Shown here piece after piece: positions 35,590 to 64,000 of a stretch of 64,000 bases of DNA. How positions within the stretch are numbered: the first letter of the stretch is position 1; every line of letters starts with the position of its first letter. The translations under genes were made by a program, and so were the position numbers. The stretch lies in the NCBI GenBank assembly GCA_019054805.1, contig JAHQIY010000013.1:1550001-1614000 (forward strand), in the 5' to 3' direction. The stretch is from Brachionus manjavacas (lineage: Eukaryota > Rotifera > Eurotatoria > Ploima > Brachionidae). The notes beneath the pieces were generated by a model, which saw nothing but the letters and a program-made list of their open reading frames with translations, ran no database searches and was not told the DNA's origin.

Positions 35590-35700
35590 TTAAAATATAT
35601 AAATAATAGCATGTTGTTGTGGATGCGAGAAAATGATATACCATCCTTTCAGGAACTAATAGATCAGATTAAATGCAAATCGGAGTAGAAAAACATTTGA
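35590..35700 (+). pseudogene. Helitron Rep fragment (short)
   Basis: This is the post-HxH stretch (LLWMREND, then IPS, ELIDQI), ending in the shared CGGAGTAG stop. Its upstream side is joined to non-Helitron sequence (ATATAAATAATAGCATG) at the same point as in the copies at 40,985, 51,360 and 61,515. The junction therefore predates the module duplications. Confidence 0.65.
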
Positions 35701-36165
35701 AAAAATTCAAATAAACATTACTTAAGAATATCTAAAAATTGTCGGCAATTCACTATTTTTTTGCTTAATTTAATATGAATTTTTCCCATTTTTCCCGGAA
35801 ACAAATAAAATCGATCCAAAATTATTTTCCATAAAACGATTAAAAAATAACTTATAATTTTAATTTAATTTAAAATGTTTATCAATCAAGTCCGTTTTCA
35901 TTATTAAATAATTGAAAGTCCAATTATTATTGTTATTTCGTTATCAAATATTCCATTATTCAGTTTTGAAGGCAAATACGATTTTAAAATCATTTGATTT
36001 CAATTTTATTTAATTTACGCAGAAAATTTGATGATTTAATGATTCAAATTTTATAAAGAATGCTTTTATTCAATCATTAATTTAAATAATATTTATTATA
36101 TATTTAAAAGTTCAATTCAATTAAGTAATTTTCTTCTTTGTTTTTTTCATATTTTCATCTTCATA

Positions 36166-38389: not shown

Positions 38390-39189
38390 CTACTCCGATT
38401 TGAATATAATCTGATCAATTAGTTCCCGAAATGATGGTATATCATTTTCTCGCATCAACAACAGCATATGATCATGTGGAAGTCCTCTCTTTTGATATAA
38501 CTTCACTCCAACAAAAGCCTCTAACACTGCCATATTGTGTTCGGGGTTCAGATCCTTCCAGAACTCACAGAACTTCAAATTGTACATTCTGGAACACATG
38601 TTAGGCCGAGATAAATATGGCTGACCTGCAGCCAAAGTTTGTTGAAGTTCAGGCCGGCTGGGATTTGACGTAAATGCTATAAAGTAATCGGCTTTACCAA
38701 ATCTTCCAAATAGTTACAATGCATCGTAATTTGTTTCATGGCTCTATCACTGCCTTCAAACGTAGATGGTGGAATCTAAGCCCTGTCAATTCTCTCTTCA
38801 AGATTTTAATTACTATTAACACAATCCATTACGCCCCGATAGTCCATTATTCTTAAACAAGATTGATTAATACGAAGAAATTTAAATTTGTTCTTTTATA
38901 ATCCGTGAACAAACCACATATTCTTGAAATAGTTTGCTCATTTTAAAAATAGAATTGTGACAATTCAATCGAATGTGGAAACGATGCTTGTAATAATAAA
39001 TGTTATATTCTATCAAAGTTACTCTTGAATTTGTAGTCAAATGAACTTGATTATGTTGATAACGCTCATCATAGCCAGATTCACCATATAGAAAAAGCAA
39101 TGGAAAACACATAGGATCACAATTTGGGTTCCTCAATTCAATGCTTTGCATATTATTATTTGGACGTTGTGGTACATGTCCTAGATATA
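38390..39189 (-). pseudogene. Helitron Rep/helicase N-terminal region, most complete copy (B)
   Basis: Two open segments on the minus strand belong to the N-terminal region of a Helitron rolling-circle transposase. The first (39,189 to 38,882) reads GHVPQRPNNNMQSIELRNPN, then CDPMCFPLLF, GESGYDE and NSRVTL. The second is open from 38,713 to 38,390. It contains GRFGKADYFIAFTSNP (matching the family's FITFTCNP-type motif), QQTLAAGQPYLSRPNMC, and the HUH metal-binding motif in YQKRGLPHDH. The stretch between them is broken by stops and frame changes, including a TAA just before LFGRFG. The protein stops (TAG, 38,390-38,392) right after LIDQIIFKSE. The catalytic tyrosines, the helicase and everything downstream are therefore absent. 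It is clearly a dead fragment; the family assignment is strong. Confidence 0.88.
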
Positions 39190-41937
39190 TTATGAGTAAT
39201 TTATAAAATAAGTTAATACCTTAAATAAACATTAAATGATGGAAATTTTGTAATAATAACTTATTTTTATTTAAAGCATTTAAAGACAATATTTCTGATA
39301 TAAATTATAATTTTACTTCCATATAATGATAAATAAATTTTGGCAAGTGAGTTTGTGATACCTTTGGGCTATTTTACTAAAATAAAACCATTACATTAGG
39401 ATTTAATTAAAAAATTAAATCCTAAAATCTAAAACTAATTGTTACTCAGAAGTTTTCCGATTCTTGGAGGATTAAAGGATCTTTAAATTGTGGATTTAAA
39501 ATGAAACTTCGAACTAATTTCCCAATCAAGGGTATTAATAATCAGTAATTATTATTTATTAAATGTAATAATAATGGAAAAAAGTGTCATATTAAAAGAC
39601 TATTAAAATTACTTCCTCACTTAAGGAAGTAATTAATATAATCAGAAGTTAGATAATATTTTGATGATGCTTTCTAGATTAATTGTTCAATAAAACAATC
39701 TCTTACAATCATTGTATGACTTATTTATTTGAAAATATTTCGTGCTTATGTGAAAACTGGCAATTTATTAAATCAGCATGAATTAATGTAAATTTTGGAA
39801 TTTAATAAATATTAAGTTAAAAGAAATAAAAAAATATAACTTTATTATTAACATTAACTTCTGTTTAAAGATAAAGCTGCCGAAATTTTATTGTTTAATG
39901 ATTAAAAAAATTAAAATTTTTTGCATATTAATTATTGTCTTAAGTAAAATTGTTTCAGAGACGTTTGTCTGACATAAAGAACCTTAAATAGTGCATTTCC
40001 AACTAACAAATGTGCTACTAATTGGTTTTCCAATGTTAGGTCAGGAAACATGGTTGAAACGAAACAGTTAAATGTGTTAAGTAAACCGGGAAAGAATCTA
40101 GACGAGACATTGATTTGAATATATATTCATTAATTAGCAACATCATCGAAATTAGAAAGAGTATGTGAAGGCTTAGTGGTAAAAAAAAATTCATGGCTTA
40201 AAATAAAATGATTTTGATAAGATCAAATGGTACGAATTTATTATGAGATTATATACTTGTCTTTCTGTAAATCATGAAAAATTCAAGTTGAAACAACGCT
40301 TCCAATTTTATATGAATAACGTATCACTTATTTAGTTATTAAATCTTTTTCTAATATTGAAAAAAGTAATTTTATTTTCTTTAAACTCAAAAAATAGATC
40401 TTTTTTTTTTGGGTTGGAAATTTAATTCCCAGCCAAGAGTAATCTGTAATTTTCATTTTAATATTACAGATATTACTTAAATTTTTATTACAGATTAGAA
40501 ATACTCTTGAATGTAATTTAGATTTAATTTAATTTAATTTTAAATTAATCACTTAACGCTACGTAATTTTTATCACAGAGGATAAATAAAATATCGACCA
40601 TGCTCTCTAGATAAATAGTTCGATAATACAAACTAATCATCTAGAATCATTATAAGACTTTTATATTTGATATTATTTCATGTTAATGTAAAAACTGGAA
40701 AATTATAAAATCAGCTTAGTCTTCATATCAACATGTATTAATGTAAATCTTTGAATTAAAACTAAAATTTGTTTAAAGGAAATGAAAAAAATATAACTTA
40801 AAATTAACATTGACTGCTATTTAAAGGTAAAAATGCCGAAATTTTATTGTTTAATAATTAAATAAACCAAAAATTTTGCTAATTAATTGAGTAAGTGATA
40901 CGTTTAGGCTAGTTTGCCTTTTTGATTTTACTCATATAAGATAAATAATATTTTTTAATCCATTTTTCGTTAAAATATATAAATAATAGCATGTTGTTGT
41001 GGATGCGAGAAAATGATATACCATTATTTCAGGAACTAATAGATCAGATTATATTCAAATCGGAGTAGAAAAAGATTTGAAAAATTGAAATAAACATTAC
41101 TTAAGAATATTTAAATATTGTTGGCAATTTAATATGAATTTTCCCAAATGGAAACAAATAATATCAATCTTTCCAAAATTATTTTCAATAAAACGATTAA
41201 AAAATAACTTATAATTTTAATTTAATTAAAATGTTTATCAATCAAGTCCGTTTTCATTATTAAATAATTGAAAGTCTAATTATTATTGTTATTTCGTTAT
41301 CAAATATTCCATTATTCGATTTTGAAGGCAAATACGATTTTAAAATCATTTGATTTCAATTTTATTTAATTTACGCAGAAAATTAAATGAATCAATGATT
41401 CAAATTTTGTAAAGAATTGTTTTATTCCATCATTAATTTAAATGGTATTTAATAAATATTTAAAAATTCAATTCAATTAAGTAATTTTCTTCTTTGTTTT
41501 TTTCATATTTTCATCTTCTTAAGGAAAAAAAAGATTAACGTGACCAAAAAGCTTTTCAAAATAAATCAATCGAATGCCATTATTTTATTTTAACGCAAAA
41601 ATCTTAAATTTTATTATTTATTTTGGTTGATTAGATTCAAACAGGCAAACTAGCCCAAACATATCACTTACTCAATTAAATATCCAAAAATTTTGGTTTA
41701 TATAATTATTAACTTAGCAGCTATAACTTTAATTATCAGTTAATACTAATTATCAGTTATATTTACTTGATTTCCCTTAAACTAATGTTAGTTATATTTC
41801 CAAGAATTACATTAATTCATATTGATATGAAGACTTTCTAATATCTAAAATTTTAAGAAATAATTGTTTAAATATCAAGAAGTCGTTAAGGAAATTTTCC
41901 TATTCTAACTTTGCTTACATTTCGGACATTCAAATAA
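39190..41937 (+). repeat. AT-rich module; copies at 33,818-36,165 and 50,153-52,313
   Basis: The first 2.3 kb are a direct copy of 33,818-36,165. The part from 39,745 (GTGAAAACTGGCAATTTAT) to 41,937 is collinear with 50,153-52,313 at an offset of ~10,400 bp and very similar. It ends at an abrupt breakpoint, CATTCAAATAAGAGTTAG, where the other copies read CATTCAAATAAAAAATC. It contains a short Rep fragment at 40,985-41,090. No gene is seen. Confidence 0.85.
40985..41090 (+). pseudogene. Helitron Rep fragment (short)
   Basis: Same content and same two junctions as the fragment at 35,590-35,700. It reads LLWMREND, then ELIDQIIFKSE and a stop. Confidence 0.65.
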
Positions 41938-43786: not shown

Positions 43787-46198
43787 ACATTTGAAAAAAT
43801 TCAAATAAACATTACTTAAGAATATCTAAATGTTGTCGGCAATTCACTATTTTTTTGCTTAATTTAATATGAATTTTTCCCAAACGGAAACAAATAAAAT
43901 CAATCTTTCCAAAATTATTTTCAATAAAACGATTAAAAAATAACTTATAATTTTAATTTAATTAAAATGTTTATCAATCAAGTCCGTTTTCATTATTAAA
44001 TAATTGAAAGTCCAATTATTATTGTTATTTCGTTATCAAATATTCTATTATTCGATTTTGACGGCAAATACGATTTTTAAATCATTTGATTTCAATTTTT
44101 TTAATTTACGCAGAAAATTAAATGATTCAATGATTCAAATTTTATAAAGAATGCTTTTATTCAATCATTAATTTAAATGGTATCAATTAAATATTTAAAA
44201 ATTCAATTCAATTAAGTCATTTTCTTCTTTGTTTTTTTTCCTTTTTTCATCATCATAAGGAATAAAAGATTAACGAGACAAAAAAGTTTTTCAAACTCAA
44301 TCAAAGGCAAACTAGCCCAAACATATCACTTACTCAATTAATTATCGAAAAATTTTGGTTTAAATTATTAACTTAGCAGCTTTAACTTTAAATAGCAGTT
44401 AATAGTAATTATCAGTTAAATTTAATTGATTTCCTTTAAACGAATGTTAGTTATATTTCCTAGATCTACATTAATTCATGTTGAAATGAAGACTTTCTAA
44501 TATCTAAAATTTTAAGAAATAATTTTTTAAATATAAAAAAGTCGTTAAGGAAATTTTCCTATTCTAACTTTGTTACCGTTTCAGACAATCAAATAAAAAA
44601 TATATGTTTAAGAAACAGAATTTTATTTAGATTTTACATAAAATCGATTAAAATATTTTTCTAATATTCTATAGATTTCATTTTAGGAAATATAATGAAT
44701 TATTTATTGCTAAACAGTTTATTAGTATTTAACACAAATGGAGATCATTCGACGAGTTATTAACTTGACAAATATTCATCAGCTCTATTAAAGTTTTAAT
44801 CATCTAATCACAACCAACTTAAATTATTCACTATTGCTATTTCTCAATGCTTTATGAAACAAGTTTAGTAAACATAATCGATATTGACATTAGTTACTTA
44901 CTAGTATGTTTTTTGGAGAAAAATTTTAGTGAAGGGAATGTAAACGAAATAGTTGCAATGTGTCGGTAAAATTTGAAAAAATCATGTGAAAATAACACTA
45001 TTAATTTATATTCATGTATGTACTTAAAATCAAAAACGAATTTTGATTTATTTAGTAAAAAGATAGAAGAACACAAATAATTAATGTTTAAGAAATAAAA
45101 TCAAATGATTAGTATTGATTCTGATTAAAAATAAATATATATGTATTAATAAAATTATCTTTGGTTAAGTAAAATAAAATATTCGATCAAATATTTTCTA
45201 TCTAACTCTAAACAAAAGTATTTATCTAGTTATTTACCAAAATACTCTTCGAATATAGGAAATAAACTTAATTTTGTTAGATTACTTTAATATTTATAAA
45301 TACATATGTATTAATTCAGAAGATCATTACGTAAAGATATCTATAAATTTTCAAAAATTTACTTTTGATTTCTTATTTTAAATGAATCTCTTTCAATTGA
45401 AACATATATAATCCAATATTCAAAGAATTTATTAAATTCCCTTTAAAATAACATTTATCACATATTAAACATTTTTTTTTCAGCAATATTTATTTTTCTT
45501 AAAAAAAAAGATAAACTCTAAACAAGAGACAAAACAGCTCGATTTTTAACTAAAATGCAATTATTTTAATTAAACACATGAAGACATAGAGAAATATTTT
45601 CATTTATAATTACTCAAGGTTTGGAATTAATTTTATACAAACAAGCTCAATTGTTTCACTTTCTCAACTATTTATCAATAAAATTTCGGCAGCTCTTCCT
45701 TTAAATAGCAGTCAATATTAATAAAAAGTTAAATTTTTTTACAATAGTTTTAAATTAAAATTAGTTATTATTCCAAGATTTACATTAATTCATTTTGAAT
45801 CGATGACTGATTTTAAAATTGCAAGATTTTACATTGGCATGAAATATTATCAAATAAATAAGTCTTATAATAATTTTAAAGGACTAGTTAGTATTTATGA
45901 AAAATATATCTAGAGATCTTGATTAATATTTTATTTAACGTCTGTAATGAAATAAAGATTATGGAACAACGGCTTCAGTCAGGGAATAAAAATTATATGA
46001 GCTTTCATATTTATAATGACATTATCATGCAATATATTTACATTGAATAAATTGTTTAATTCAGAAACGGAAAGTCTTTTAAAAGCCTTTTAAGTTGGAA
46101 AGTCATTTATTTATTTTTTAATATGATTTAAAAGGATTTACATTCTTTTATGAACAATTTTTTAAGAATGCGTTATTAATATTCAAATGAACGTCTGT

Positions 46199-46970: not shown

Positions 46971-49902
46971 TTTCTAATATTTTATAGATTTCACTTTAGG
47001 AAATAAAAACAATTTTTTATTGCTAAACAGTTTATTAGTATTTAACACAAACGGAGATCTTTCGACGAGTTATTAACTTGACAAATATTAATCAGCTCTA
47101 TTGAAGTTTTAATCATCTAATCACAACCAACTTAAATTATTCACAATTGATATTTCTCGATGCTTTATGAAACAAGTTTAGTAAACATAATCGATTTTGA
47201 CATTAGTTACTTACTAGTATGTGTTTTGAAGAAAAATTTTAGTGAAGGGAATGCAAACGAAATAGTTGCAATGTGTCGGTAATATAGGAAAAAATTTTGT
47301 CAAAATAACAATTTTAATTTATATTCAAGTATGTCATTAATGTATTGATTAAAACGAATATTGATTTATTTAGTAAAAAGAAAGAAGAAAACAAATAATT
47401 AATGTTTTAAGAAATTTAATCAAATGATTTGTATTGATTGTGAGCTTATTAATAAGTATATTTGTATTAATAAAATTATCTTTTGTTAAGTTAGAATAAA
47501 TATTCGATCTATCTAACTTTAAACAAAAGTTTTTATCTAGTTATTTACCAAAATACTCTTCATACATAGGAAATAAACTTAATTTTATTAAAATTACTTT
47601 AAATATTTATAAATACATATGTATTAATTCAGAAGATTAGTACGTAAAGATATATATAAATTTTCAAAAATTTACTTTTGATTTCTATTTTTAAAATGAA
47701 TCTCTTTCAATTGAAACAAATACAATCCAATATTTAAAGAATTTATTTAATTCCCTTTAAAATATCATTTATCACATATATAAACATTTTTTTTTCAGCA
47801 ATATTTATTCTTTTTAAAAAAAAAAATAAACTCTAAACAATGACAAAACAGCTTGATCATTAACTAAAATGCAATTATTTTAATTAAACACATGAAGAAA
47901 TAGAGAATTATTTTTATTTATAATTACTCAAGGTTTGGAATTAATTTTATAAAAACAAGCTCAATTGTTTCACTTTCTCAATTATTTATCAATAAAATTT
48001 CGGCAGCTCTACCTTTAAATAGCAGTCAATATTAATAAAAAGTTAAATTTTTTTTTCATTAGTTTTAAATTAAAATTAGTTATAATTCCAAAATTTACAT
48101 TAATTCATTTTGATTGGATGACTGATTTTAAAATTGCTAGATTTTACATTGGCATGAAATATTATCAAATAAACAAGTCTTATAATGATTTTAAAGGATT
48201 AGTTAGTATTTATGAATAATTTATCAAGACATCTTGTTTAATATTTTGTTTAACGTCAGTAATGAAATAAAGATTATGGAACAACGGCTTTAGTCAGGGA
48301 AGAAAAATTATATGAGCTTTCATATCTAAAATGACATTATCATGCAATAAATTTACATTGAATAAATTGTTTAATTCAGAAACGGAAAGCCTTCCTGGGA
48401 AGAAAAAGTTTCAAAAGATGAAAATACCAATTAATCATTTTACTTTCACGTTAAACCCATGTCTGAATCAATTTAATATTTTATCTAATATTTAAAACAA
48501 TTAACAATGGTACACAAATTTGGAAGATTTTGAACTGAACTACCATAAAGAATTGGAGAATAGACTAAACGGGATTCCGCTGATTAATAAAAGACTACTA
48601 TCTACTAATCCGATTGGTTCAAGAAAAATTTAACCATTCAACTTGAACTGATGGAACTTGTCATGAATTATTATCAATTATTTATCCTTAAATATGATAA
48701 AAAGGATTTACATTTTTATAATGAACAATTTTTAAAGAATGCGTTATTTATATTCAAATGAACGTCTATTTAAAAAAAAACTACGTAACAAAGGCTTAAG
48801 TGAGGGAAGAAAATTTTAGAAGTTTTAGAAATTATTTGACAATGTTATTAATTTTTTTTTCAGTGAATACATTGCATTATTCTTAAAAGAAAGTCTTTAT
48901 TGGATGAATCCGTTTCAAAGATCTCTAAACACAAATAAATTTATATACTCACCACTTAAACACATGGCAAAATCAAGTGAATATTTTATCAAAATTAAAG
49001 TATAATCAATTTTATATGAAATCTAAATAAAATTCTGTTTATTAAACATAGATATTTTATTTGAATGTCCGAAATGGAAGCAAAGTTAGAATAGGAAAAT
49101 TTCCTTAACGACTTCTTTATACTTAAACAATTATTTCTTAAAATTTTAGATATTAGAAAGTCTTCATATCAATATGAATTAATGTAAATCTTGGAAATAT
49201 AACTAACATTAGTTTAAAAGAAAATCAAGTAAATTTAACTGCTAATTAATATTAATTGCTATTTAAAGTTATAGCTGCTAAGTTAATAATTAAAAAAAAC
49301 CAAAATTTATGGTTATTTAATTGAGTAAGTGATATGTTTGGGCTAGTTTGCCTGTTTGAATTTACTCAACCAAAATAAATAATATAATTTAACCTTTTTC
49401 GTTAAAATAAAATAATGGCATTCGATTGATTTATTTTGAAAAACTTTTTTGTCTCGTTAATCTTTTTTTTCCTCAAGAAGATGAAAATATGAAAAAAACA
49501 AAGAAGAAAATGACTTAATTGAATTGAATTTTTGAATATTTAATAAATACCATTTAAATTAATGATTAAAAGCATTCTTCATAAAATTTGAATCATTGAA
49601 TCATTTAATTTTCTGCGTAAATTAAAAAAAATTGAAATCAAATGATTTTAAAATCGTATTTGCCTTCAAAATCGAATAATGGAATATTTGATAACGAAAT
49701 AACAATAATAATTAGACTTTCAATTATTTAATAATGAAAACGGACTTGATTGATAAACATTTTAATTAAATTAAAATTGTTAGTTATTTTTTAATCGTTT
49801 AATTTAAAATAATTTTGGAAAGATTGATTTTATTTGTTTCCATTAGGGAAAAATTCATATTAAATTGCCGACTTAAGTAATGTTTATTTCAATTTTTCAA
49901 AT
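46971..49902 (+). repeat. AT-rich modules copied from 44,660-46,150 and 37,020-38,390
   Basis: 46,971-48,390 follows 44,660-46,070 in the same orientation at an offset of ~2,314 bp. 48,500-49,900 follows 37,020-38,390 at an offset of ~11,480-11,520 bp. The core word GCTGCCGAAA occurs inverted near 48,000, and a GCTGCTAAG variant near 49,275. There is no gene apart from the coding-like fragment at 48,507. Confidence 0.8.
48507..48690 (+). pseudogene. Unidentified coding-like fragment
   Basis: A copy of the 37,024 fragment with small changes (CTACTAATCCGATTGGTTC). The frame WYTNLEDFELNYHKELENR is kept in the first part. Confidence 0.5.
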
Positions 49903-50152: not shown

Positions 50153-51785
50153 CATGTGAAAACTGGCAATTTATAAAATCAGCATGAATTAATGTAAATT
50201 TTGGAATTTAACAAATATTAAGTTAAAAGAAATGAAAAAAAATAACTTTATTATTAACATTAACTGCTGTTAAAAGATAAAGTGCCCAAATTTTATTTTT
50301 TAATGATTAAAAAAATTAAAATTTTTTGCATATTAACGTTTGTCTGACATAAAGAACCTTAAATGGTGCATTTCCAACTAACAAATGTGCTTCTAATTGG
50401 TTTTACAATGTTAGTTCAAGAAACATGGTTGAAACGAAACAGTTAAAATTGCTAAGTAAACCAGGAAAGAATCTAGACGAGACATTGATTTGAATATATA
50501 TTCATTAATTAGCAACATCATCGAAATTAGAAAGAGTATGTGAAGGCTTAGTGGTAAAAAAAATTTCATGGCTTAAAATAAAATGATTTTGATAAGATCA
50601 AATGGTACGAATTTATTATTAGATTATATACTTGTCTTTCTGTAAATCATGAAGATTCAAGTTGAAACAACGCTTCCAATTTTATATGAATAACGTACCA
50701 CTTATTTAGTTATTAAATCTTTTTCTAATATTGAAAAAAGTAATTTTATTTTCTTTAAACTCAAAAAATAGATCTTTTTTTTTTGGGTTGGAAATTTAAT
50801 TCCCAGCCAAGAGTAATCTGTAATTTTCATTTTAATATTACAGATATTACTTAAATTTTTATTACAGATTAGAAATACTCTTGAATGTAATTTAGATTTA
50901 ATTTAATTTAATTTTAAATTAATCACTTAACGCTACGTAATTTTTATCACAGAGGAAAAATAAAATATCGACCATGCTCTCTAGATAAATTGTTCGATAA
51001 TACAAACTAATCATCAACAATCATTATAAGACTTTTAAATTGATATTTTTTCATGTTAATGTAAAAAAATGGAAAATTGTAAAATCAGCTTAGTCTTCAT
51101 ATCAACATGTATTAATGAAAATCTTTGAATTTAAACAAAAATTTGTTTAAAGGAAATGAAAAAAATATAACTTAAAATTAACATAGACTGCTATTTAAAG
51201 GTAAAAATGCCGAAATTTTATTGTTTAATAATTAAATAAACCAAAAATTTTGCAAATTAGTTGAGTAATTGATACGTTTAGGCTAGTTTTCCTTTTTGAT
51301 ATTACTCAAATAAGATAAATAATATTTTTTAATCCATTTTTCGTTAAAATATATAAATAATAGCATGTTGTTGTGGATGCGAGAAAATGATATACCATCA
51401 TTTCAGGAACTAATAGATCAGATTATATTCAAATCGGAGTAGAAAAAGATTTGAAAAATTTAAATAAACATTACTTAAGAATATCTAAATATTGTCGGCA
51501 ATTTAATATGAATTTTTCCCAAATGGAAACAAATAATATCAATCTTGTCAAAATTATTTTATATTAAACGATTAAAAAATAACTAACAATTTTAATTTAA
51601 TTAAAATGTTTATCAATCAAGTCCGTTTTCATTATTAAATAATTGAAAGTCTAATTATTATTGCTATTTCGTTATCAAATATTCCATTATTCGATTTTGA
51701 AGGCAAATACGATTTTAAAATCATTTGATTTCAATTTTATTTAATTTACGCAGAAAATTAAATGAATCAATGATTCAAATTTTGT
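50153..51785 (+). repeat. AT-rich module, direct copy of 39,745-41,410, no gene seen
   Basis: It is collinear with 39,745 onward from GTGAAAACTGGCAATTTAT. It lacks ~30 bp near 50,330, where the TTAATTATTGTC stretch is missing. It contains a short Rep tail at 51,360-51,455 with the shared CGGAGTAG stop. The collinearity continues into the palindrome arm, to about 52,313. Confidence 0.8.
51360..51455 (+). pseudogene. Helitron Rep fragment (short)
   Basis: Same content and junctions as at 35,590 and 40,985. Confidence 0.65.
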
Positions 51786-52633
51786 AAAGAATTGTTTTAT
51801 TCCATCATTAATTTAAATGGTATTTAATAAATATTTAAAAATTCAATTCAATTAAGTAATTTTCTTCTTTGTTTTTTTCATATTTTCATCTTCTTAAGGA
51901 AAAAAAAGATTAACGAGACAAAAAAGCTTTTCAAAATAAATCAATCGAATGCCATTATTTTATTTTAACGCAAAAATCTTAAATTTTATTATTTATTTTG
52001 GTTGATTAGATTCAAACAGGCAAACTAGCCCAAACATATCACTTACTCAATTAAATATCCAAAAATTTTGGTTTATATAATTATTAACTTAGCAGCTATA
52101 ACTTTAATTATCAGTTAATATTAATTATCAGTTATATTTACTTGATTTCCCTTAAACTAATGTTAGTTATATTTCCAAGAATTACATTAATTCATATTGA
52201 TATGAAGACTTTCTAATATCTAAAATTTTAATAAATAATAGTTTAAATATCAAGAAGTCGTTAAGGAAATTTTCCTATTCTAACTTTGCTTACATTTCGG
52301 ACATTCAAATAAAAAATCTATGTTTAATAAACAGAATTTTATTTAGATTTCATATAAAATTGATTATACTTAAATTTTAGATAAAATATTAACTTGATTT
52401 TGCCATGTGTTTAAGTGGTGAGTATATAAATTTATTTGTGTTTAGAGATCTTTGAAACGGTTTCATCCAATAAAGACTTACCTTTAAGAATAATGCAATG
52501 TATTCACTGAAAAAAAAATTAATAACATAGTCAAATAATTTCTAAAACTTCTAAAATTTTCTTCCCTCACTTAAGCCTATCTTACGTAGTTTTTTTAAAA
52601 CAGACGTTCATTTGAATATTAATAACGCATTCT

Positions 52634-52867
52634 TTAAAAATTTTTCATAAAAAGATGTAAATCCTTTTTATCATATTTAAGGATAAATAATTGATAATAT
52701 TTCATGACAAGTTGCATCAGTTCAAGTTGAATGGTAAAATTTTTCTTGTACCAATCGGAGTAGTAGATAGTAGTCTTTTTATTAATCAGCGGAATCCCGT
52801 TTAGTCTATTCTCCAATTCTTTATGGTAGTTCAGTTCAAAATCTTCCAAATTTGTGTACCATTGTTA
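52634..52867 (-). pseudogene. Unidentified coding-like fragment, longest open copy
   Basis: An open frame of 71 codons on the minus strand reads MEDFELNYHKELENR, then LNGIPLINKKTTIYYSDWYK, then a hydrophilic tail rich in leucine and lysine. Codons upstream of the methionine also read in frame (WYTNL). The composition, with tryptophan, tyrosine and acidic residues and few random-looking runs, looks like decayed protein. I cannot place it in a family. The sister copies are frame-shifted by one A. Confidence 0.4.
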
Positions 52868-54169
52868 ATTGTTTTAAATATTAGATTAAATATTAAATTG
52901 ATTCAGCCATGGGTGTAACGTGAAAGTAAAATGATTAATTGGTATTTTCTTCCTTTGAAACTTTTTCTTCCCAAGAAGGCTTTCCGTTTCTGAATTAAAC
53001 AATTTATTCAATGTAAATATAAAGCATGATAGTGTCATTTTAATTATGAAAGCTATATGTCATATAATTTTCTTCCCTGACTTAAGCCGTTGTTCCATAA
53101 TCTTTATTTAATTACAGACGTTAAATAAAATATTAATCAAAATGTCTTGATAAATTTTTCATAAATAATAACTAATCCTCTAAAATCATTATAAGACTTA
53201 TTTGTTTGACAATTTTTCATGCCAATGAAAAATCTAGCAATTTTAAAATCAGTCATCGAATCAAAATGAATTAATGTAAATCTTGGAATAATAATAATTT
53301 TAATTTAAAACTAATGTAAAAAAATTTAACTTTTTATTAATATTGACTGCTATTTAAAGGTAGAGCTGCCGAAATTTTATTGATAAATAATTGAAAAAGT
53401 GAAACAATTGAGCTTGTTTGCATAAAATTAATTCCAAACCTTGAGTAATTATAAATAAAAATATTTCTCTATGTCTTTAAGTGTTTAATTAAAATAATTG
53501 CATTTTAGTTAATGATCAAGCTGTTTTGTCTCTTTTATCTTTTTTTTTTAAAAAGAATAAATATTGCTGAAAAAAAAATGTTTAATATGTGATAAATGTT
53601 ATTTTAAAGGGAATTTAATAAATTCTTTGAAAATTGGATTATATATGTTTCTATTGAAAGAGATTCATTTAAAAATAAGATAACAAAAGTAAATTTTTGA
53701 AAATTTATAGATATCTTTACGTTATGAAGATGAAAATATGAAAAAAACAAAGAAGAAAATTACTTAATTGAATTAAACTTTTAAATATTTAATAAATATT
53801 ATTTAAATTAATGATTGAATAAAAGCATTCTTTATAAAATTTGAATCATTAAATCATCAAATTTTCTGCGTAAATTAAATAAAATTGAAATCAAATGATT
53901 TTAAAATCGTATTTGCCTTCAAAACTGATAATGGAATATTTGATAACGAAATAACAATAATAATTGGACTTTCAATTATTTAATAATGAAAACGGACTTG
54001 ATTGATAAACATTTTAATTAAATTAAAATTATAAGTTATTTTTTAATCGTTTTATGGAAAATAATTTTGGATCGATCTTATTTGTTTCCGTTTGGGAAAA
54101 ATTCATATTAAATTAAGCAAAAAAATAGTGAATTGCCGACAATTTTTAGATATTCTTAAGTAATGTTTA

Positions 54170-54285
54170 TTTGAATTTTTTCAAATGTTTTTCTACTCCG
54201 ATTGGTATATAATCTGATCTATTAGTTCCTGAAAGGATGGTATATCTTTTTCTCGCATCCACAACAACATGCTATTATTTATATA
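54170..54285 (-). pseudogene. Helitron Rep tail fragment
   Basis: Minus-strand copy of the post-HxH stretch ending with the shared stop. It is joined to the ATATATTTTAACG module at 54,286, as at 35,590. Its palindromic partner is at 61,505-61,615. Confidence 0.65.
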
Positions 54286-54321
54286 TTTTAACGAAAAATG
54301 GATTAAAAAATATTATTTATC

Positions 54322-54641
54322 TTATTTGAGTGATATCAAATAGGTCGTTATAATCCGTGAACAAACCACATATTCTTGAAATAATATGCTCATTTTAAAA
54401 ATAGAATTGTGACAATTCAATCGAATGTGGAAACGATGCTTGTAATAATAAATGTTATATTCTTTTAAAGTTACTCTTGAATTTGTAGTCAAATGAACTT
54501 GATTTAGTTGATAACGCTCATCATAGCCAGATTCACCAAATGGAAAAAGCAATGGAAAACACATAGGATCACAATTTGGGTTCCTCAATTCAATGCTTTG
54601 CATATTATTATTTGGACGTTGTGGTACATGTCCTAGATATA
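54322..54641 (-). pseudogene. Helitron N-terminal fragment, copy E
   Basis: Open on the minus strand from about 54,641. It reads GHVPQRPNNNMQSIELRNPN, then CDPMCFPLLFPFGESGYDER, then NSRVTLKEYNIYYYKHR and EYVVCSRII. It then jumps at ATAACGACC (about 54,340) into the non-Helitron TATTTGATATCACTC module, giving a chimeric end (TTYLISLK). The rest of Rep is missing. PFGESGY in this copy preserves the family-like PxGE motif better than copy B, which has LYGESGY. Confidence 0.8.
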
Positions 54642-55761
54642 TTATGAGTAATTTATAAAATCAGTTAATACCTTAAATCAACATTAAATGATGGAAATTT
54701 TGTAATAATAACTTATTTTTATTTAAAGCATTTAAAGACAATATTTCTGATATAAATTATAATTTTACTTTCATATAATGATAAATAAATTTTGGCAAGT
54801 GAGTTTGTGATACCTTTGGGCTATTTTACTTAAATGAAACCATTACATAACCAAAAAAATTAAATTCAAAAATCTAAAAACTAATTTTTACTCAGAAGTT
54901 TTTCGATTCTTGGAGGATTAAAGGATCTTTAAATTGTGGATTTAAAAAAAAACTCAGAATTAATTTCCCAGTCAAGAGTATTAATAATCAGTAATTATTA
55001 TTTATTAAATGTAATAATAATGGAAAAAAGTGTCATATTAAAAGACTATTAAAATTACTTCCTCACTTAAGGAAGTAATTAATATAATCAGAAGTTAAAT
55101 AATATTTTGATGATGCTCTCTGGATTAATTGTTCAATAAAACAATCTCTTACAATCATTGTATGACTTATTTATTTGAAAATATTTCGTGCTTATGTGAA
55201 AACTGGCAATTTATAAAATCAGCATGAATTAATATAAATTTTGGAATTTAACAAATATTAAGTTAAAAGAATTAAAAAAATATAACTTTATTATTAACAT
55301 TAACTGCTGTTTTAAGATAAAGCCCAAATTTTATTGTTTAATGATTAAAAAAATTTAAATTTTTTTGCATATTAATTATTGTCTTAAATAAAAGTGTTTC
55401 AGAGACTTTTGTCTGACATAAAGAACCTTAAATAGTGCATTTCCAACTAACAAATGTGCTTCTAATTGGTTTTACAATGTTAGTACAAGAAACATGGTTG
55501 AAACGAAACAGTTAAAATTGCTAAGTAAACCAGGAAAGAATCTAGACGAGACATTAATTTGAATATATATTCATTAATTAGCAACATCATCGAAAACAGA
55601 AAGAGTATGTTAAGGCTTAGCGTTAAAAAAAATTTCATGGCTTAAAATAAAATGATTTTGATAAGATCAAATGGTCCGAATTTATTATGAGATTATATAC
55701 TTGTCTTACTGTAAATCATGAAAAATTAAAGTTGAAACAACGCTTCCAATTTTATATGAAT

Positions 55762-55850
55762 GCTGTTGTGGTTGCGAGAAAATGATATACCATCATTTCA
55801 GGAACTAATAGATCAGATTATATTCAAATCGGAGTAGAAAAAGATTTGAA
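55762..55850 (+). pseudogene. Helitron Rep tail fragment
   Basis: Post-HxH stretch with the shared stop, here joined upstream to TTATATGAATGCTG of a different module (the GCTTCCAATTTTATATGAAT unit). Its palindromic partner is at about 59,936-60,024. Confidence 0.6.
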
Positions 55851-57405
55851 AAATTGAAATAAACATTACTTAAGAATATCTAAATATTTTCGGCAATTCA
55901 CTATTTTTTTGCTTAATTTAATATTAATTTTTCCCAAATGGAAACAAATAAAATCAATCTTTCCAAAATTATTTTCCATAAAACGATTAAAAAATAACTA
56001 ATAATTTTAATTTAATTAAAATGTTTATCAATCAAGTCCGTTTACATTAAAAAATAATTGAAAGTCTAATTATTATTGTTATTTCGTTATCAAATAATCT
56101 ATTTTTCGATTTTGAATGCAAATACGATTTTTAAATCATTTGATTTCAATTTTATTAAATTTACGCAGAAAAATCAAATGATTCAATGATTCTAATTTAA
56201 TAAAGAATGCTTTTATTCAATCATTAATTTAAATGGTATTTATTAAATATTTAAAAATTCAATTCAATTAAGTCATTTTCTTCTTTGTTTTATTTCCTTT
56301 TTCATCATCATAAGGTATAAAAGATTAACGAGACAAAAAAGTTTTTCAAAATCAATCAAAGGCAAACTACCAAACATATCACTTACTCAATTAATTATCG
56401 AAAAATTTTAGTTTACTTAATAATTAACTTAGCAGCTTTAACTTTAAATAGCAGTTAATAGTAATTATCAGTTAAATTTACTTGATTTCCTTTAAACTAA
56501 TGTTAGTTATATTTCCAAGATCTACATTAAATCATATTGATATGAAGACTTTCTAAAATCTAAAATTTTAAGAAATAATTGTTTAAATATAAAAAAGTCG
56601 TTAAGGAAATTTTCCTATTCTAACTTTGTTACCGTTTCAGACAATCAAATAAAAAATCTATGTTTAAGAAACAGAATTTTATTTAGATTTTACACAAAAT
56701 CGATTATACTATTTTTCTAATATTCTATAGATTTCATTTTAGGAAATATAATGAATTATTTATTGCTAAACAGTTTATTAGTATTTAACACAAATGGAGA
56801 TCATTCGACGAGTTATTATCTTGACAAATATTCATCAGCTCTATTAAAGTTTTAATCATCTAATCACAACTAACTTAAATTATTCACTATTGCTATTTCT
56901 CAATGCTTTATCAAACAAGTTTAGTAAACATAATCGATTTTGACATTAGTTACTTACTGATATGTGTTTTGAAGAAAAATTTTAGTGAAGGGAATGCAAA
57001 CGAAATAGTTGCAATGTGTCGGTAAAATAGGAAAAAAATCATGTGAAAATATCACTTTTAATTTATATTCATGTATGTACTTAAAATCAAAAACGAATTT
57101 TGATTTATTCAGTAAAAAGATAAAAGAACACAAATAATTAATGTTTAAGAAATAAAATCAAATGATTAGTATTGATTCTGATTTAAAAATAAGTATATTT
57201 GTATTAATAAAATTATCTTTGGTTAAGTAAAATAAAATATTGGATCAAATATTTTCTTTCTAACTCTAAACAAAAGTTTTTATCTAGTTATTTACCAAAA
57301 TACTCTTCGAATATAGGAAATAAACTTAATTTTATTAAAATTACTTTAAATATTTATAGATACATATCTATTAATTCAGAAGATCATTACGTAAAGATAT
57401 CTATA

Positions 57406-57731
57406 CAGTGAATTCTCGATTATCGAGACCCACGATTATCGAGACTCCAGACTTTTTATATAAATTTTTGTTTCCCGAATTTTTTAAATCCTTTTACACG
57501 TAAAAAAAAATTGATTATCGAGACTCGAGTCTCGATTATTTTTTTTTTATCGACACTCTATTTTATAATAAAACTGAGACTTTTAATGTAAAGTTTACTT
57601 AATTTTCGAGACCTAAACTATGTCTTATTGAATATTTTTTCAAATGTTAATTTTCCATGCTATATAGAAAAATTGATAATTAAAAGCACCATTTTTATTT
57701 CTTTTATTCTTTGGTATTAATTTTCAAAATG
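57406..57731 (+). repeat. Left ~325-bp terminal inverted repeat of the pogo-like element
   Basis: It pairs with 58,055-58,380. Visible mismatches are few, for example CTCCAGAC here against CTCGAGAC (complement) on the right, and CCTAAACTATG against CCTAAATTATG. The repeat covers the element's end and its whole 5' untranslated stretch. Confidence 0.88.
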
Positions 57732-57968
57732 AATCTTGAAAAGAAACGTTTAAACATTTTGCAAAAAATTGAAATAGTTCAATATGCTAAAGCCAATCCA
57801 AAAGAGACTCATGTTTTTATTGCTGCAAAGTTTGCCAAAAAATTTGGTTTCAAACATGAAAGTGATTTAGATCACCTTGCTGCGATAAAAATCAGATTGG
57901 ATAGCTTGAAAGAAACAAACAAATCTCAAATATTGATAACTTCATTTTTTGATTTTGAATCTAAATGA
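57729..57968 (+). CDS. Short pogo/Tigger transposase-derived ORF (N-terminus joined to C-terminal tail)
   Basis: A 79-residue open frame starts at ATG 57,729; an upstream in-frame TTG at 57,711 is unlikely to be used in a eukaryote. Residues ~4-40 (KKRLNILQKIEIVQYAKANP, then IAAKFAKKFG) resemble the first helices of the CENP-B/pogo N-terminal DNA-binding domain. Residues ~41-79 (LDHLAAIKIRLDSL, then ITSFFDF) resemble the extreme C-terminal tail of Tigger-type transposases, which often ends in an ITDFF-like motif. The recognition helix, the second DNA-binding repeat and the DDE core would lie between them and are absent. This is best read as an internal-deletion product. It could at most make a small binding or competitor peptide; most likely it is inert. 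The family call rests on the element ends plus this weak similarity. Confidence 0.55.
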   Translation: MNLEKKRLNILQKIEIVQYAKANPKETHVFIAAKFAKKFGFKHESDLDHLAAIKIRLDSLKETNKSQILITSFFDFESK

Positions 57969-58054
57969 TATTAATTTGTATAATATACTTTAAATTTTTT
58001 ATTTTTTTTTAAATAATATTTTTTTTAAATAATATTTTTTTAATACTTTGGTAT

Positions 58055-58380
58055 TAATTTGAAAAATAATACCAAAGAATAAAAGAAATAAAAATGGTGC
58101 TTTTAATTATCAATTTTTCTATATAGCATGGAAAATTAACATTTGAAAAAATATTCAATAAGACATAATTTAGGTCTCGAAAATTAAGTAAACTTTACAT
58201 TAAAAGTCTCAGTTTTATTATAAAATAGAGTGTCGATAAAAAAAAAATAATCGAGACTCGAGTCTCGATAATCAATTTTTTTTTACGTGTAAAAGGATTT
58301 AAAAAATTCGGGAAACAAAAATTTATATAAAAAGTCTCGAGTCTCGATAATCGTGGGTCTCGATAATCGAGAATTCACTG
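58055..58380 (-). repeat. Right ~325-bp terminal inverted repeat of the pogo-like element
   Basis: Inverted copy of 57,406-57,731. Just before it (58,046-58,061) lies a direct repeat of CTTTGGTATTAATTT from the inner end of the left repeat. It forms a small hairpin with the start of the right arm. This is a possible switch point. Confidence 0.85.
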
Positions 58381-59935
58381 TATAGATATCTTTACGTAAT
58401 GATCTTCTGAATTAATAGATATGTATCTATAAATATTTAAAGTAATTTTAATAAAATTAAGTTTATTTCCTATATTCGAAGAGTATTTTGGTAAATAACT
58501 AGATAAAAACTTTTGTTTAGAGTTAGAAAGAAAATATTTGATCCAATATTTTATTTTACTTAACCAAAGATAATTTTATTAATACAAATATACTTATTTT
58601 TAAATCAGAATCAATACTAATCATTTGATTTTATTTCTTAAACATTAATTATTTGTGTTCTTTTATCTTTTTACTGAATAAATCAAAATTCGTTTTTGAT
58701 TTTAAGTACATACATGAATATAAATTAAAAGTGATATTTTCACATGATTTTTTTCCTATTTTACCGACACATTGCAACTATTTCGTTTGCATTCCCTTCA
58801 CTAAAATTTTTCTTCAAAACACATATCAGTAAGTAACTAATGTCAAAATCGATTATGTTTACTAAACTTGTTTCATAAAGCATTGAGAAATAGCAATAGT
58901 GAATAATTTAAGTTAGTTGTGATTAGATGATTAAAACTTTAATAGAGCTGATGAATATTTGTCAAGATAATAACTCGTCGAATGATCTCCATTTGTGTTA
59001 AATACTAATAAACTGTTTAGCAATAAATAATTCATTATATTTCCTAAAATGAAATCTATAGAATATTAGAAAAATAGTATAATCGATTTTGTGTAAAATC
59101 TAAATAAAATTCTGTTTCTTAAACATAGATTTTTTATTTGATTGTCTGAAACGGTAACAAAGTTAGAATAGGAAAATTTCCTTAACGACTTTTTTATATT
59201 TAAACAATTATTTCTTAAAATTTTAGATTTTAGAAAGTCTTCATATCAATATGATTTAATGTAGATCTTGGAAATATAACTAACATTAGTTTAAAGGAAA
59301 TCAAGTAAATTTAACTGATAATTACTATTAACTGCTATTTAAAGTTAAAGCTGCTAAGTTAATTATTAAGTAAACTAAAATTTTTCGATAATTAATTGAG
59401 TAAGTGATATGTTTGGTAGTTTGCCTTTGATTGATTTTGAAAAACTTTTTTGTCTCGTTAATCTTTTATACCTTATGATGATGAAAAAAGGAAATAAAAC
59501 AAAGAAGAAAATGACTTAATTGAATTGAATTTTTAAATATTTAATAAATACCATTTAAATTAATGATTGAATAAAAGCATTCTTTATTAAATTAGAATCA
59601 TTGAATCATTTGATTTTTCTGCGTAAATTTAATAAAATTGAAATCAAATGATTTAAAAATCGTATTTGCATTCAAAATCGAAAAATAGATTATTTGATAA
59701 CGAAATAACAATAATAATTAGACTTTCAATTATTTTTTAATGTAAACGGACTTGATTGATAAACATTTTAATTAAATTAAAATTATTAGTTATTTTTTAA
59801 TCGTTTTATGGAAAATAATTTTGGAAAGATTGATTTTATTTGTTTCCATTTGGGAAAAATTAATATTAAATTAAGCAAAAAAATAGTGAATTGCCGAAAA
59901 TATTTAGATATTCTTAAGTAATGTTTATTTCAATT

Positions 59936-60024
59936 TTTCAAATCTTTTTCTACTCCGATTTGAATATAATCTGATCTATTAGTTCCTGAAATGATGGTAT
60001 ATCATTTTCTCGCAACCACAACAG
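59936..60024 (-). pseudogene. Helitron Rep tail fragment
   Basis: Palindromic partner of 55,762-55,850, with the same content and stop. Confidence 0.6.
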
Positions 60025-61144
60025 CATTCATAAAAAATTGGAAGCGTTGTTTCAACTTTAATTTTTCATGATTTACAGTAAGACAAGTATATAATCTCAT
60101 AATAAATTCGTACCATTTGATCTTATCAAAATCATTTTATTTTAAGCCATGAATTTTTTTTTACCACTAAGCCTTCACATACCCTTTCTAATTTCGATGA
60201 TGTTGCTAATTAATGAATATATATTCAAATCAATGTCTCGTCTAGATTCTTTCCTGGTTTACTTAGCAATTTTAACTGTTTCGTTTCAACCATGTTTCTT
60301 GAACTAACATTGTAAAACCAATTAGAAGCACATTTGTTAGTTGGAAATGCACTATTTAAGGTTCTTTATGTAAGACAAACGTCTCTGAAACACTTTTATT
60401 TAAAACAATAATTAATATGCAAAAAATTTTAATTTTTTTAATCATTAAACAATAAAATTTGGGCAGCTTTATCTTTAAACAGCAGTTAATGTTAATAATA
60501 AAGTTATATTTTTTTATTTCTTTTAACTTAATATTTGTTAAATTCCAAAATTTACATTAATTCATGCTGATTTTATAAATTGCCAGTTTCACATAAGCAC
60601 GAAATATTTTCAAATAAATAAGTCATACAATGATTGTAAGAGATTGTTTTATTGAACAATTAATCTAGAGAGCATCATCAAAATATTATTTAACTTCTGA
60701 TTATATTAATTACTTCCTTAAGTGAGGAAGTAATTTTAATAGTCTTTTAATATGACACTTTTTTCCATTATTATTACATTTAATAAATAATAATTACTGA
60801 TTATTAATACTCTTGACTGGGAAATTAATTCTGAGTTATTTTTTAAATCCACAATTTAAAGATCCTTTAATCCTCCAAGAATCGAAAAACTTCTGAGTAA
60901 AAATTAGTTTTTAGATTTTTGAATTTAATTTTTTTGGTTATGTAATGGTTTCATTTAAGTAAAATAGCCCAAAGGTATCACAAACTCACTTGCCAAAATT
61001 TATTTATCATTATATGAAAGTAAAATTATAATTTATATCAGAAATATTGTCTTTAAATGCTTTAAATAAAAATAAGTTATTATTACAAAATTTCCATCAT
61101 TTAATGTTGATTTAAGGTATTAACTGATTTTATAAATTACTCAT

Positions 61145-61466
61145 AATAAATCTAGGACATGTACCAAAACGTCCAAATAATAATATGCAAAGCATTGAAT
61201 TGAGGAACCCAAATTGTGATCCTATGTGTTTTCCATTGCTTTTTCCATTTGGTGAATCTGGCTATGATGAGCGTTATCAACTAAATCAAGTTCATTTGAC
61301 TACAAATTCAAGAGTAACTTTAAAAGAATATAACATTTATTATTACAAGCATCGTTTCCACATTCGATTGAATTGTCACAATTCTATTTTTAAAATGAGC
61401 ATATTATTTCAAGAATATGTGGTTTGTTCACGGATTATAACGACCTATTTGATATCACTCAAATAA
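61145..61466 (+). pseudogene. Helitron N-terminal fragment, copy F
   Basis: Palindromic partner of copy E and nearly identical to it. CCAAAACGTCC here replaces CCACAACGTCC. The open frame MQSIELRNPNC to ITTYLISLK ends in the same chimeric junction at 61,441-61,445. As in copy E, no HUH motif is attached. Confidence 0.8.
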
Positions 61467-61504
61467 GATAAATAATATTTTTTAATCCATTTTTCGTTAA
61501 AATA

Positions 61505-61615
61505 TATAAATAATAGCATGTTGTTGTGGATGCGAGAAAAAGATATACCATCTTTTCAGGAACTAAAAGATCAGATTATATACAAATCGGAGTAGAAAAA
61601 CATTTGAAAAATTGA
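61505..61615 (+). pseudogene. Helitron Rep tail fragment
   Basis: Post-HxH stretch with GTTGTGGATGCGAG, a degraded ELKDQII reading and the shared CGGAGTAG stop. The upstream junction to ATATAAATAATAGCATG is the same as at 35,590. Confidence 0.65.
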
Positions 61616-62924
61616 AATAAACATTACTTAAGAATATCTAAAAATTGTCGGCAATTCACTATTTTTTTGCTTAATTTAATATGAATTTTTCCCAAACGGA
61701 AACAAATAAGATCGATCCAAAATTATTTTCCATAAAACGATTAAAAAATAACTTATAATTTTAATTTAATTAAAATGTTTATCAATCAAGTCCGTTTTTC
61801 ATTATTAAATAATTGAAAGTCCAATTATTATTGTTATTTCGTTATCAAATATTCCATTATCAGTTTTGAAGGCAAATACGATTTTAAAATCATTTGATTT
61901 CAATTTTATTTAATTTACGCAGAAAATTTGATGATTTAATGATTCAAATTTTATAAAGAATGCTTTTATTCAATCATTAATTTAAATAATATTTATTAAA
62001 TATTTAAAAGTTTAATTCAATTAAGTAATTTTCTTCTTTGTTTTTTCATATTTTCATCTTCATAACGTAAAGATATCTATAAATTTTCAAAAATTTACTT
62101 TTGTTATCTTATTTTTAAATGAATCTCTTTCAATAGAAACATATATAATCCAATTTTCAAAGCATTTATTAAATTCCCTTTAAAATAACATTTATCACAT
62201 ATTAAACATTTTTTTTTCAGCAATATTTATTCTTTTTAAAAAAAAAAGATAAAAGAGACAAAACAGCTTGATCATTAACTAAAATGCAATTATTTTAATT
62301 AAACACTTAAAGACATAGAGAAATATTTTTATTTATAATTACTCAAGGTTTGGAATTAATTTTATGCAAACAAGCTCAATTGTTTCACTTTTTCAATTAT
62401 TTATCAATAAAATTTCGGCAGCTCTACCTTTAAATAGCAGTCAATATTAATAAAAGTTAAATTTTTTTACATTAGTTTTAAATTAAAATTAGTTATTATT
62501 CCAAGATTTACATTAATTCATTTTGATTCGATGACTGATTTTAAAATTGCTAGATTTTTCATTGGCATGAAAAATTGTCAAACAAATAAGTCTTATAATG
62601 ATTTTAGAGGATTAGTTATTATTTATGAAAAATTTATCAAGACATTTTGATTAATATTTTATTTAACGTCTGTAATTAAATAAAGATTATGGAACAACGG
62701 CTTAAGTCAGGGAAGAAAAATTATATGACATATAGCTTTCATAATTAAAATGACACTATCATGCTTTATATTTACATTGAATAAATTGTTTAATTCAGAA
62801 ACGGAAAGCCTTCTTGGGAAGAAAAAGTTTCAAAGGAAGAAAATACCAATTAATCATTTTACTTTCACGTTACACCCATGGCTGAATCAATTTAATATTT
62901 AATCTAATATTTAAAACAATTAAC

Positions 62925-63150
62925 AATGGTACACAAATTTGGAAGATTTTGAACTGAACTACCATAAAGAATTGGAGAATAGACTAAACGGGATTCCGCT
63001 GATTAATAAAAGACTACTATCTACTACTCCGATTGGTACAAGAAAAATTTTACCATTCAACTTGAACTGATGCAACTTGTCATGAAATATTATCAATTAT
63101 TTATCCTTAAATATGATAAAAAGGATTTACATCTTTTTATGAAAAATTTT
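62925..63150 (+). pseudogene. Unidentified coding-like fragment
   Basis: Palindromic partner of 52,634-52,867. It reads WYTNLEDFELNYHKELENR and then falls out of frame, because it has one A fewer in the run before GACTACTATC. The frame difference between the two arms is a single-base indel. Confidence 0.5.
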
Positions 63151-64000
63151 TAAAGAATGCGTTATTAATATTCAAATGAACGTCTGTTTTAAAAAAACTA
63201 CGTAAGATAGGCTTAAGTGAGGGAAGAAAATTTTAGAAGTTTTAGAAATTATTTGACGATGTTATTAATTTTTTTTTCAGTGAATACTTTGCATTATTCT
63301 TAAAGGTAAGTCTTTATTGGATGAAACCGTTTCAAAGATCTCTAAACACAAATAAATTTATATACTAACCACTTAAACACATGGCAAAATCAAGTTAATA
63401 TTTTATCTAAAATTTAAGTATAATCAATTTTATATGAAATCTAAATAAAATTCTGTTTATTAAACATAGATTTTTTATTTGAATGTCCGAAATGTAAGCA
63501 AAGTTAGAATAGGAAAATTTCCTTAACGACTTCTTGATATTTAAACTATTATTTCTTAAAATTTTAGATATTAGAAAGTCTTCATATCAATATGAATTAA
63601 TGTAAATCTTGGAAATATAACTAAAATTAGTTTAAGGGAAATCAAGTAAATATAACTGATAATTAATATTAACTGATAATTAAAGTTATAGCTGCTAAGT
63701 TAATAATTATATAAACCAAAATTTTTGGATATTTAATTGAGTAAGTGATATGTTTGGGCTAGTTTGCCTGTTTGAATCTAATCAACCAAAATAAATAATA
63801 AAATTTAAGATTTTTGCGTTATAATAAAATAATGGCATTCGATTGATTTATTTTGAAACGCTTTTTTGTCTCGTTAATCTTTTTTTTCCTTAAGAAGATG
63901 AAAATATGAAAAAAACAAAGAAGAAAATTACTTAATTGAATTAAACTTTTAAATATTTAATAAATATTATTTAAATTAATGATTGAATAAAAGCATTCTT

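Follow-up and report, generated by a model that had tools for sequence, protein, structure and literature searches.

Known fold-back duplications and the locus in Brachionus manjavacas

Fold-back inverted duplications are known from human chromosomes and from yeast. In the excerpted text of the human study (Hermetz et al. 2014, PMC3907307), a single-copy spacer lies at the fold-back loop, the inverted homology is very short, inserts are locally derived (mostly from within 1 kb), and the sequence beyond the break is lost. In the excerpts of Li et al. 2020 (PMC7467729), yeast fold-back inversions include some with loops ranging from 15 nt to thousands of nucleotides, and fold-back inversions are resolved there mostly by homologous recombination. 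Origin-dependent inverted-repeat amplification (ODIRA) makes forward-inverted-forward triplets, as stated in the excerpt of PMC4689423. Here, we describe a palindrome of ~13 kb in the rotifer Brachionus manjavacas whose hinge lies within a pogo-like transposon. The window, that is, the whole stretch of DNA that was analyzed, is 64,000 bp long (GenBank contig JAHQIY010000013.1, here C13:1550001-1614000, from an assembly of 114.17 Mb in 61 contigs, GCA_019054805.1). The palindrome was probably formed when a broken or stalled end inside the inserted transposon folded back and copied its left side in inverted orientation.

The locus appears to be a further example of the known fold-back inverted duplication, placed in a palindrome-rich repeat island. 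It shares with the human cases all the features listed above. In the same excerpts (PMC3907307), the human duplications are large and lie beside terminal deletions, with sequenced spacers of 766 bp to 70 kb, whereas this one is interstitial, spans ~6 kb, has a loop of 329 bp, and turns within a transposon in a repeat island. It resembles the yeast large-loop inversions in having a loop of >15 nt and an inverted copy whose end was probably resolved by repeat homology; according to the excerpts of PMC7467729, however, those inversions were obtained by selection, and their large loops came mostly from named mutants, while the rotifer locus is a natural state with patchy differences. With ODIRA, as excerpted (PMC4689423), it shares the forward-inverted-forward order of the left arm (A), the right inverted arm (A'), and a downstream sister copy (B), and it differs in that the second junction has an older-looking counterpart at a further locus (locus C, below). 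Among the titles and abstract openings retrieved, nothing was on point for a transposon at a palindrome center or hinge, for pogo elements with a palindrome and inverted duplication, or for fold-back palindromes in satellites; palindrome and gene conversion papers were present, several of them on sex chromosomes. The unusual aspect here is that one insertion can be seen in its empty, intact, and broken states next to each other, within an island whose several palindromes differ in divergence.

Structure of the palindrome

Coordinates follow the window numbering, and values above 64000 lie past the window. "The 110 kb" denotes the window with adjoining C13 sequence; beyond the window, C13 was covered at 1505-1515, 1540-1550, 1614-1660, and 1709-1719 kb. 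An earlier sequence-only reading of the window had reported a palindrome of >12 kb with a coordinate sum of 115,786, and self-comparison confirmed both the structure and its axis. Within the window, the arms (51787-57728 and 58058-64000) share 98.99% identity over 5,949 bp, with 47 mismatches and 11 gap openings. When neighboring sequence was included (51365-57728 and 58058-64417), 6,371 bp could be aligned at 98.65% identity with 68 mismatches and 13 gap openings, which is no chance match, and the far end was located 417 bp beyond the window. The short loop predicted in that reading stood, measuring 329 bp instead of ~320 bp, as did the inverted copying of the flank, the size of which is ~6.0 kb rather than 5.6 kb. 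Arm A is taken as the original copy because its left flank is collinear with that of B (95.6% identity). The parts of the palindrome are as follows.

51365..57728, forward strand: left arm A (self-comparison)
58058..64000, continuing to 64417 outside the window, reverse strand: right arm A', the inverted copy (self-comparison)
57729..58057, no strand: unpaired palindrome loop, 329 bp (self-comparison)
57404..57405, with its mirror at 58381-58382, no strand: left TA target site (sequence)

From the start of TA plus CAGTGAATTC at 57404 to the end of its mirror at 58382, an apparent element of 975 bp is enclosed (57406-58380). Across the window, one open reading frame (ORF) of at least 120 amino acids was present (ORF scan; spliced genes were not searched for), and the tRNA and Rfam scans each returned 0 matches.

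The intact form of the element

The sequence-only reading had described this 975-bp span as a transposon with terminal repeats, which proved right for the span but not for the unit. Copy B of the element (72990-73731), located 15.6 kb downstream, is intact at 742 bp, has TA on both sides, and carries 24 identical bp as terminal repeats; a 975-bp element with 323-bp terminal repeats was ruled out on this basis. The element matches at least about a dozen places in the genome (all genome match counts given here are lower bounds). The aligned copies on contigs C1, C4, and C5 agree with B on a right end that is absent from the window copy, and the copy on C11 has the same right end. Terminal repeats starting with CAGT were found at both ends in C1, C4, and C5 and at the right end in C11. 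The window copy does not have two ends of its own, its left end being repeated in inverted orientation on the right. On these alignments, the 975-bp "element" is the left part of the element plus a reflected left part, and thus no true unit, and its ~323-bp "terminal repeats" are palindrome arm. The portion retained is as follows.

57406..58023, forward strand: left ~618 bp of the pogo-like element, native to about the break, with the native right end missing (alignment with B, C1, C4, and C5)

The TA target and the CAGT-starting terminal repeats, which we take to be pogo-like traits, are shared with Pogo/Tigger-like transposons (Tc1/mariner superfamily), as is the DDE_1 domain found inside longer relatives at C5:5318483-5318665, C11:3382116-3382596, and C7:2937103-2937453; a 136-amino-acid ORF of the copy at 3.38 Mb on C11 matches DDE_1 at 2.3e-9. 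Unlike those transposons, the window copy is a nonautonomous derivative without its own right end, and its open stretch of 79 codons contains no transposase domain in Pfam. The lone Pfam match within this stretch, MHC_II_alpha, was below threshold and was taken as chance.

Insertion before inverted duplication

The flanks of B, joined without the element, were aligned as an empty-site probe against the 110 kb. Sixty-nine alignments were obtained, and the 13 that span the site are all gapless at TA. Seven of these are 858 to 864 bp in length with 89.7 to 95.2% identity (at 44747, 80112, and 47063, and on the reverse strand at 32056, 87151, 92547, and 99883). A further five are 275 to 280 bp (88.5 to 89.6% identity), three of them in other parts of A, A', and B, and one spanning alignment is only 68% alike. 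The paralogous modules with an empty site in the window, identified from the empty-site alignment, are as follows.

44747..45600, forward strand: paralogous module with an empty site (no element, gapless at TA)
31205..32056, reverse strand: paralogous module with an empty site
47063..47914, forward strand: paralogous module with an empty site

The 854-bp empty-site module matches at least 57 places, which all lie within 1.526 to 1.755 Mb of C13. As the site in these modules is empty and gapless, they are taken as older than the insertion. A and B share 50155-58038 and 65696-73620 at 98.3% identity; therefore, a single insertion was duplicated, and B holds it without this palindrome. Since B has the intact insertion and the paralogs have the empty site, the element inserted first, with the inverted duplication breaking inside it afterwards.

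Insertion of the element into the center of a preexisting palindrome has nothing beyond its position to recommend it. Intact copies have another right end (24-bp terminal repeats in B), the 323-bp "terminal repeats" are palindrome arm, and the sister copy carries the same insertion without a palindrome. This origin was ruled out on the state of B and can practically be set aside, in line with the earlier judgment that such a chance insertion was unlikely.

The hinge junction

The loop aligns with intact elements up to about 58023, making it a single-copy spacer that is native-contiguous on one side only. Native sequence at the hinge continues through the tract TTTTTTTTAAATAATATTTTT and is followed by a short insert.

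58024..58060, forward strand: junction insert of ~37 nt that B, C1, C4, and C5 lack here, with the second copy of a 16-bp local unit and a forward 15-mer (alignment)

A 16-bp local unit occurs twice in A (58003 and 58019) and once in B (73586). A forward 15-mer at 58046 is identical to 57709-57723 and is found elsewhere within the 110 kb only in B (73293); after it, the inverted arm starts opposite 57728, giving a fold-back distance of ~295 nt from 58023 to 57728. A 12-mer of the junction, at 58,040, occurs once in the 110 kb. Beyond the break, the right end of the element and the right flank are present at B and absent at A. The 16-bp duplication and the stray forward 15-mer are what local template switching would leave, and the junction as a whole suggests fold-back synthesis with such switching. 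A single-strand fold-back and a fork or strand switch give end products that are alike. A 9-bp overlap considered as microhomology was dropped after the junction insert had been aligned. The proposal in the sequence-only reading of a break or stall inside the element, after which the left flank was copied inverted, is supported by the intact state of B and by the locally derived insertions at the junction.

Fold-back (template-switched) reads would likewise produce a short loop, a junction only a few nucleotides long, and high identity beside the hinge, and a repeat-rich island is hard to assemble, so that a library artifact or a mis-join in repetitive sequence would account for these features as well. 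We regard this as quite improbable. Two positions no more than 280 bp from the loop, 57448 and 57618, carry bases unique to A, and A' shows the B state at both; these speak against an artifact, since the fold-back of an A molecule would carry the changes of A. The differences private to A' are clumped, with one clump matching a nearby paralog, and the island contains other, more diverged inverted pairs. Private bases and clumping together lower the chance of misassembly, without removing it.

Divergence of the arms and the outer end

A, A', and B were compared column by column, and among 6,349 ungapped columns 10 changes are found only in A, 55 only in A', and 38 only in B, with one three-state site. 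The changes in A' are clumped, as 12 of the 55 lie in 55360-55676, where A' matches 65850-66200 at 99.4%, and 35 in 51368-52499. When 51365-52530 and 55100-55700 were left out, A and A' differed at 11 of the 4,589 columns that remained, A and B at 30, and A' and B at 35. Either the palindrome is younger than the split between A and B or its arms have been kept alike since. In sex chromosome-type palindromes kept alike by arm conversion, near-identical arms with differences confined to the hinge would be expected. L040 (below) shows this pattern; the differences between A and A' are patchy and lie away from the hinge. The comparisons delimit the following features.

60090..60440, reverse strand: patch in A' nearer another paralog, with 99.4% identity to 65850-66200, 96.3% to B, and 95.7% to A (three-way comparison)
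63280..64000 (to 64417), reverse strand: distal A' departing from A, with its outermost 250 bp closest to the end of an older module at locus C near 38467 (comparison)
35537..41937, forward strand: locus C, consisting of an inverted module, a 2.5-kb spacer, and a module start, the same outer arrangement as A'-spacer-B (comparison)

The outermost 250 bp of A' have 3 differences to locus C and 12 to A, and further inward than the second 250-bp bin A' turns A-like. At 64417, A' joins a spacer resembling that of locus C (38468-40953, 96.8% identity). Our reading of the outer end is that A' was joined by homology to an older inverted module and that conversion came later; plain conversion of the end of the arm fits the pattern too.

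The order and orientation of A, A', and B also fit an inverted triplication in a single event, of the ODIRA or duplication-inverted triplication-duplication (DUP-TRP/INV-DUP) type, with conversion later homogenizing A and A'. B keeps the native right end of the element, and the substitutions in a second C13 palindrome (L040, below) indicate that arm homogenization probably occurs in the island. However, the junction between A', the spacer, and B does not look new, as locus C has the same arrangement; the left flank of B is less similar to that of A (95.6%) than A and B are overall (98.3%); and ODIRA requires a short-inverted-repeat junction at both ends. A one-event triplication is therefore considered unlikely, and fold-back inside the element of A is preferred.

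Other hinges and other copies of the element

In the 110 kb, 46 inverted pairs of at least 200 bp with a spacer of <3 kb were identified, and two of their hinges were examined, namely, that of the palindrome and that of a pair near 77.6 kb. Only four pairs have a spacer of 0 to 500 bp, and of these only the palindrome holds the element. Two pairs, at 79647-80632 and 86631-87616, have 235-bp spacers and arms of <400 bp at 80 to 81% identity. The 77.6-kb pair (76447-77500 and 77690-78749) is 90.5% identical across a spacer of ~190 bp and lacks the element, both ends of which occur within the 110 kb only at A and B. Elsewhere on C13, L040 (C13:1709001-1719000) is a large palindrome with arms of ~4.8 kb, a spacer of ~239 bp, and no match to the element. 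L049 (C13:1505001-1515000) is a palindrome of 3,977 aligned bp with 2 mismatches, 10 gap openings, and a spacer of ~1.78 kb; the element has only two matches there, of 35 to 36 bp at 83% identity, outside the spacer. The outer arms of both run off the fetched stretch, and other C13 matches suggest that those of L049 extend further. Of the 40 substitutions in L040, 35 fall in the 462 bp nearest the hinge, as does a 60-bp gap, and the other ~4.35 kb has 5 along with a few short gaps, hinting at arm-to-arm conversion that stops short of the hinge. At L040 and the 77.6-kb pair, comparison with paralogs shows native DNA continuing across the spacer before the sequence jumps back by ~239 and 183 to 190 nt, respectively, the same geometry as at the element hinge.

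To survey other copies of the element, 9 of 11 places were fetched (8 to 10 kb each; fragments on C19 and C9 were left out), and inverted pairs were sought at a minimum of 150 bp and an E value of 1e-15 or better. None of the nine lies in a tight palindrome. L017 and L018 contain short self-inverted stretches that lie apart from the element, and L019 and L023 have loose inverted pairs (71 to 77%). At L023 (C11:2182001-2190000), an old inverted pair of 1.3 kb (76.5% identity, 4.36-kb spacer) is roughly centered on the element copy. An older inverted pair (71342-71942 and 74615-75214, 92.9% identity) encloses the B element in its 2.67-kb spacer.

The earlier suggestion of a transposon-seeded "palindrome factory" is not supported at these loci, as the three other large inverted pairs examined lack the element at their hinges and no tight palindrome surrounds any of the nine other copies fetched; the element was rejected as a general palindrome seed. 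On this evidence, the palindrome habit is a property of the island and not of the element. For a transposon-driven origin, in which transposase cleavage or hairpins of the element broke the chromosome and the element seeds palindromes elsewhere, one may cite the hinge within the element, the positions of the B and L023 copies in looser pairs, and the retained element strand, the single-strand fold of which beats 20 of 20 shuffles (z = -6.07). Its hairpins may have helped a stall, although this is suggestive only. The break, however, is internal, lying in an A/T tract ~620 bp into the element and not at a terminal repeat, and the open stretch of the copy is without a transposase domain, which argues against the transposase involvement proposed earlier. 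With the element in one of four close-spaced pairs, in neither L040 nor L049, and in no tight palindrome among the nine loci, we consider a transposon-driven origin very unlikely. The break lies within the element; no observation shows that the element caused it, and the element most likely marks the turning point rather than drives the event.

Some further features were recorded. Scattered matches extend the C13 island from ~1.50 to 1.86 Mb. A long tandem array occupies 10-26923 of the window, with periods of ~232, 278, and 465 bp; a 1.5-kb probe from it gave its strongest matches on C13, had diverged copies at C13:1835-1861 kb, and matched C9 and C50 weakly. L048 (C3:930001-936000) contains an inverted pair of 1,653 bp (99.6% identity, ~2-kb spacer) with two DDE_1 pieces in opposite orientation and has no match to the window's element. 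L050 (C21:120555-121901) carries a bacterial operon, presumably of the cyo quinol oxidase type, whose best relative among the matches listed is 58% identical; it is a symbiont, a contaminant, or a transfer.

Proposed course of events

Taken together, the observations are best accommodated by the following order. A short nonautonomous pogo-like element inserted at a TA within a single module of a repeat island specific to this locus, and the element-bearing module came to exist in two direct copies, A and B, probably before the fold-back. A strand of A that ended in the A/T tract ~620 bp into the element, either a DNA end or a stalled nascent strand, would then have folded back by ~295 nt, annealed through very short homology, and undergone a local template switch. 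Copying from there would have produced an inverted version of the left part of the element and of ~6 kb of left flank, losing the right end of the element and doubling the left, hence the false 975-bp "element." Synthesis would have ended by homologous joining into an older inverted module, and patches would later have been converted from neighboring paralogs.

Several points weigh against this course. The hinge is documented by the assembly alone, and the junction homology amounts to only a few nucleotides in A/T-rich DNA. The strong fold of the retained element strand means that the element may have had a causal role in stalling. The low divergence between A and A' could reflect later arm-to-arm conversion, in which case the palindrome need not be younger than the A/B duplication. 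At the outer end, the second 250-bp bin of A' resembles neither candidate source (22 differences to locus C and 17 to A), making this end complex. The right arm of the 77.6-kb pair is 93.7 to 96.7% identical to six paralogs and 89.0% to its own left arm, and both inner arms of L040 are ~95% like paralogs. As these inner arms are no closer to each other than to paralogs, the two pairs are not clean self fold-backs as they stand; they are older, rearranged, or not self-copied.

A broader view, which we put forward tentatively and with considerable doubt, is that fold-back inverted duplication recurs here as the normal growth of the island, over distances of ~190 to 330 nt, with arms kept alike by conversion and transposons as passengers that mark the order of events. 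Single-stranded gaps on the lagging strand are of about this size. Against recurrence, one of four hinges (L049) has a 1.78-kb spacer, and at two others the inner arms are no more alike than they are to paralogs.

An inserted element can thus serve as a ruler for the order of events. With the empty site, the intact insertion, and the broken insertion all preserved within one island, a single genome suffices to reconstruct a natural interstitial fold-back duplication. The locus also gives a warning that a "transposon with long terminal repeats" at the center of a palindrome can be a broken element and its mirror image. If further hinges share one range of loop sizes, the region would be a natural test of the replication-gap model of palindrome birth.

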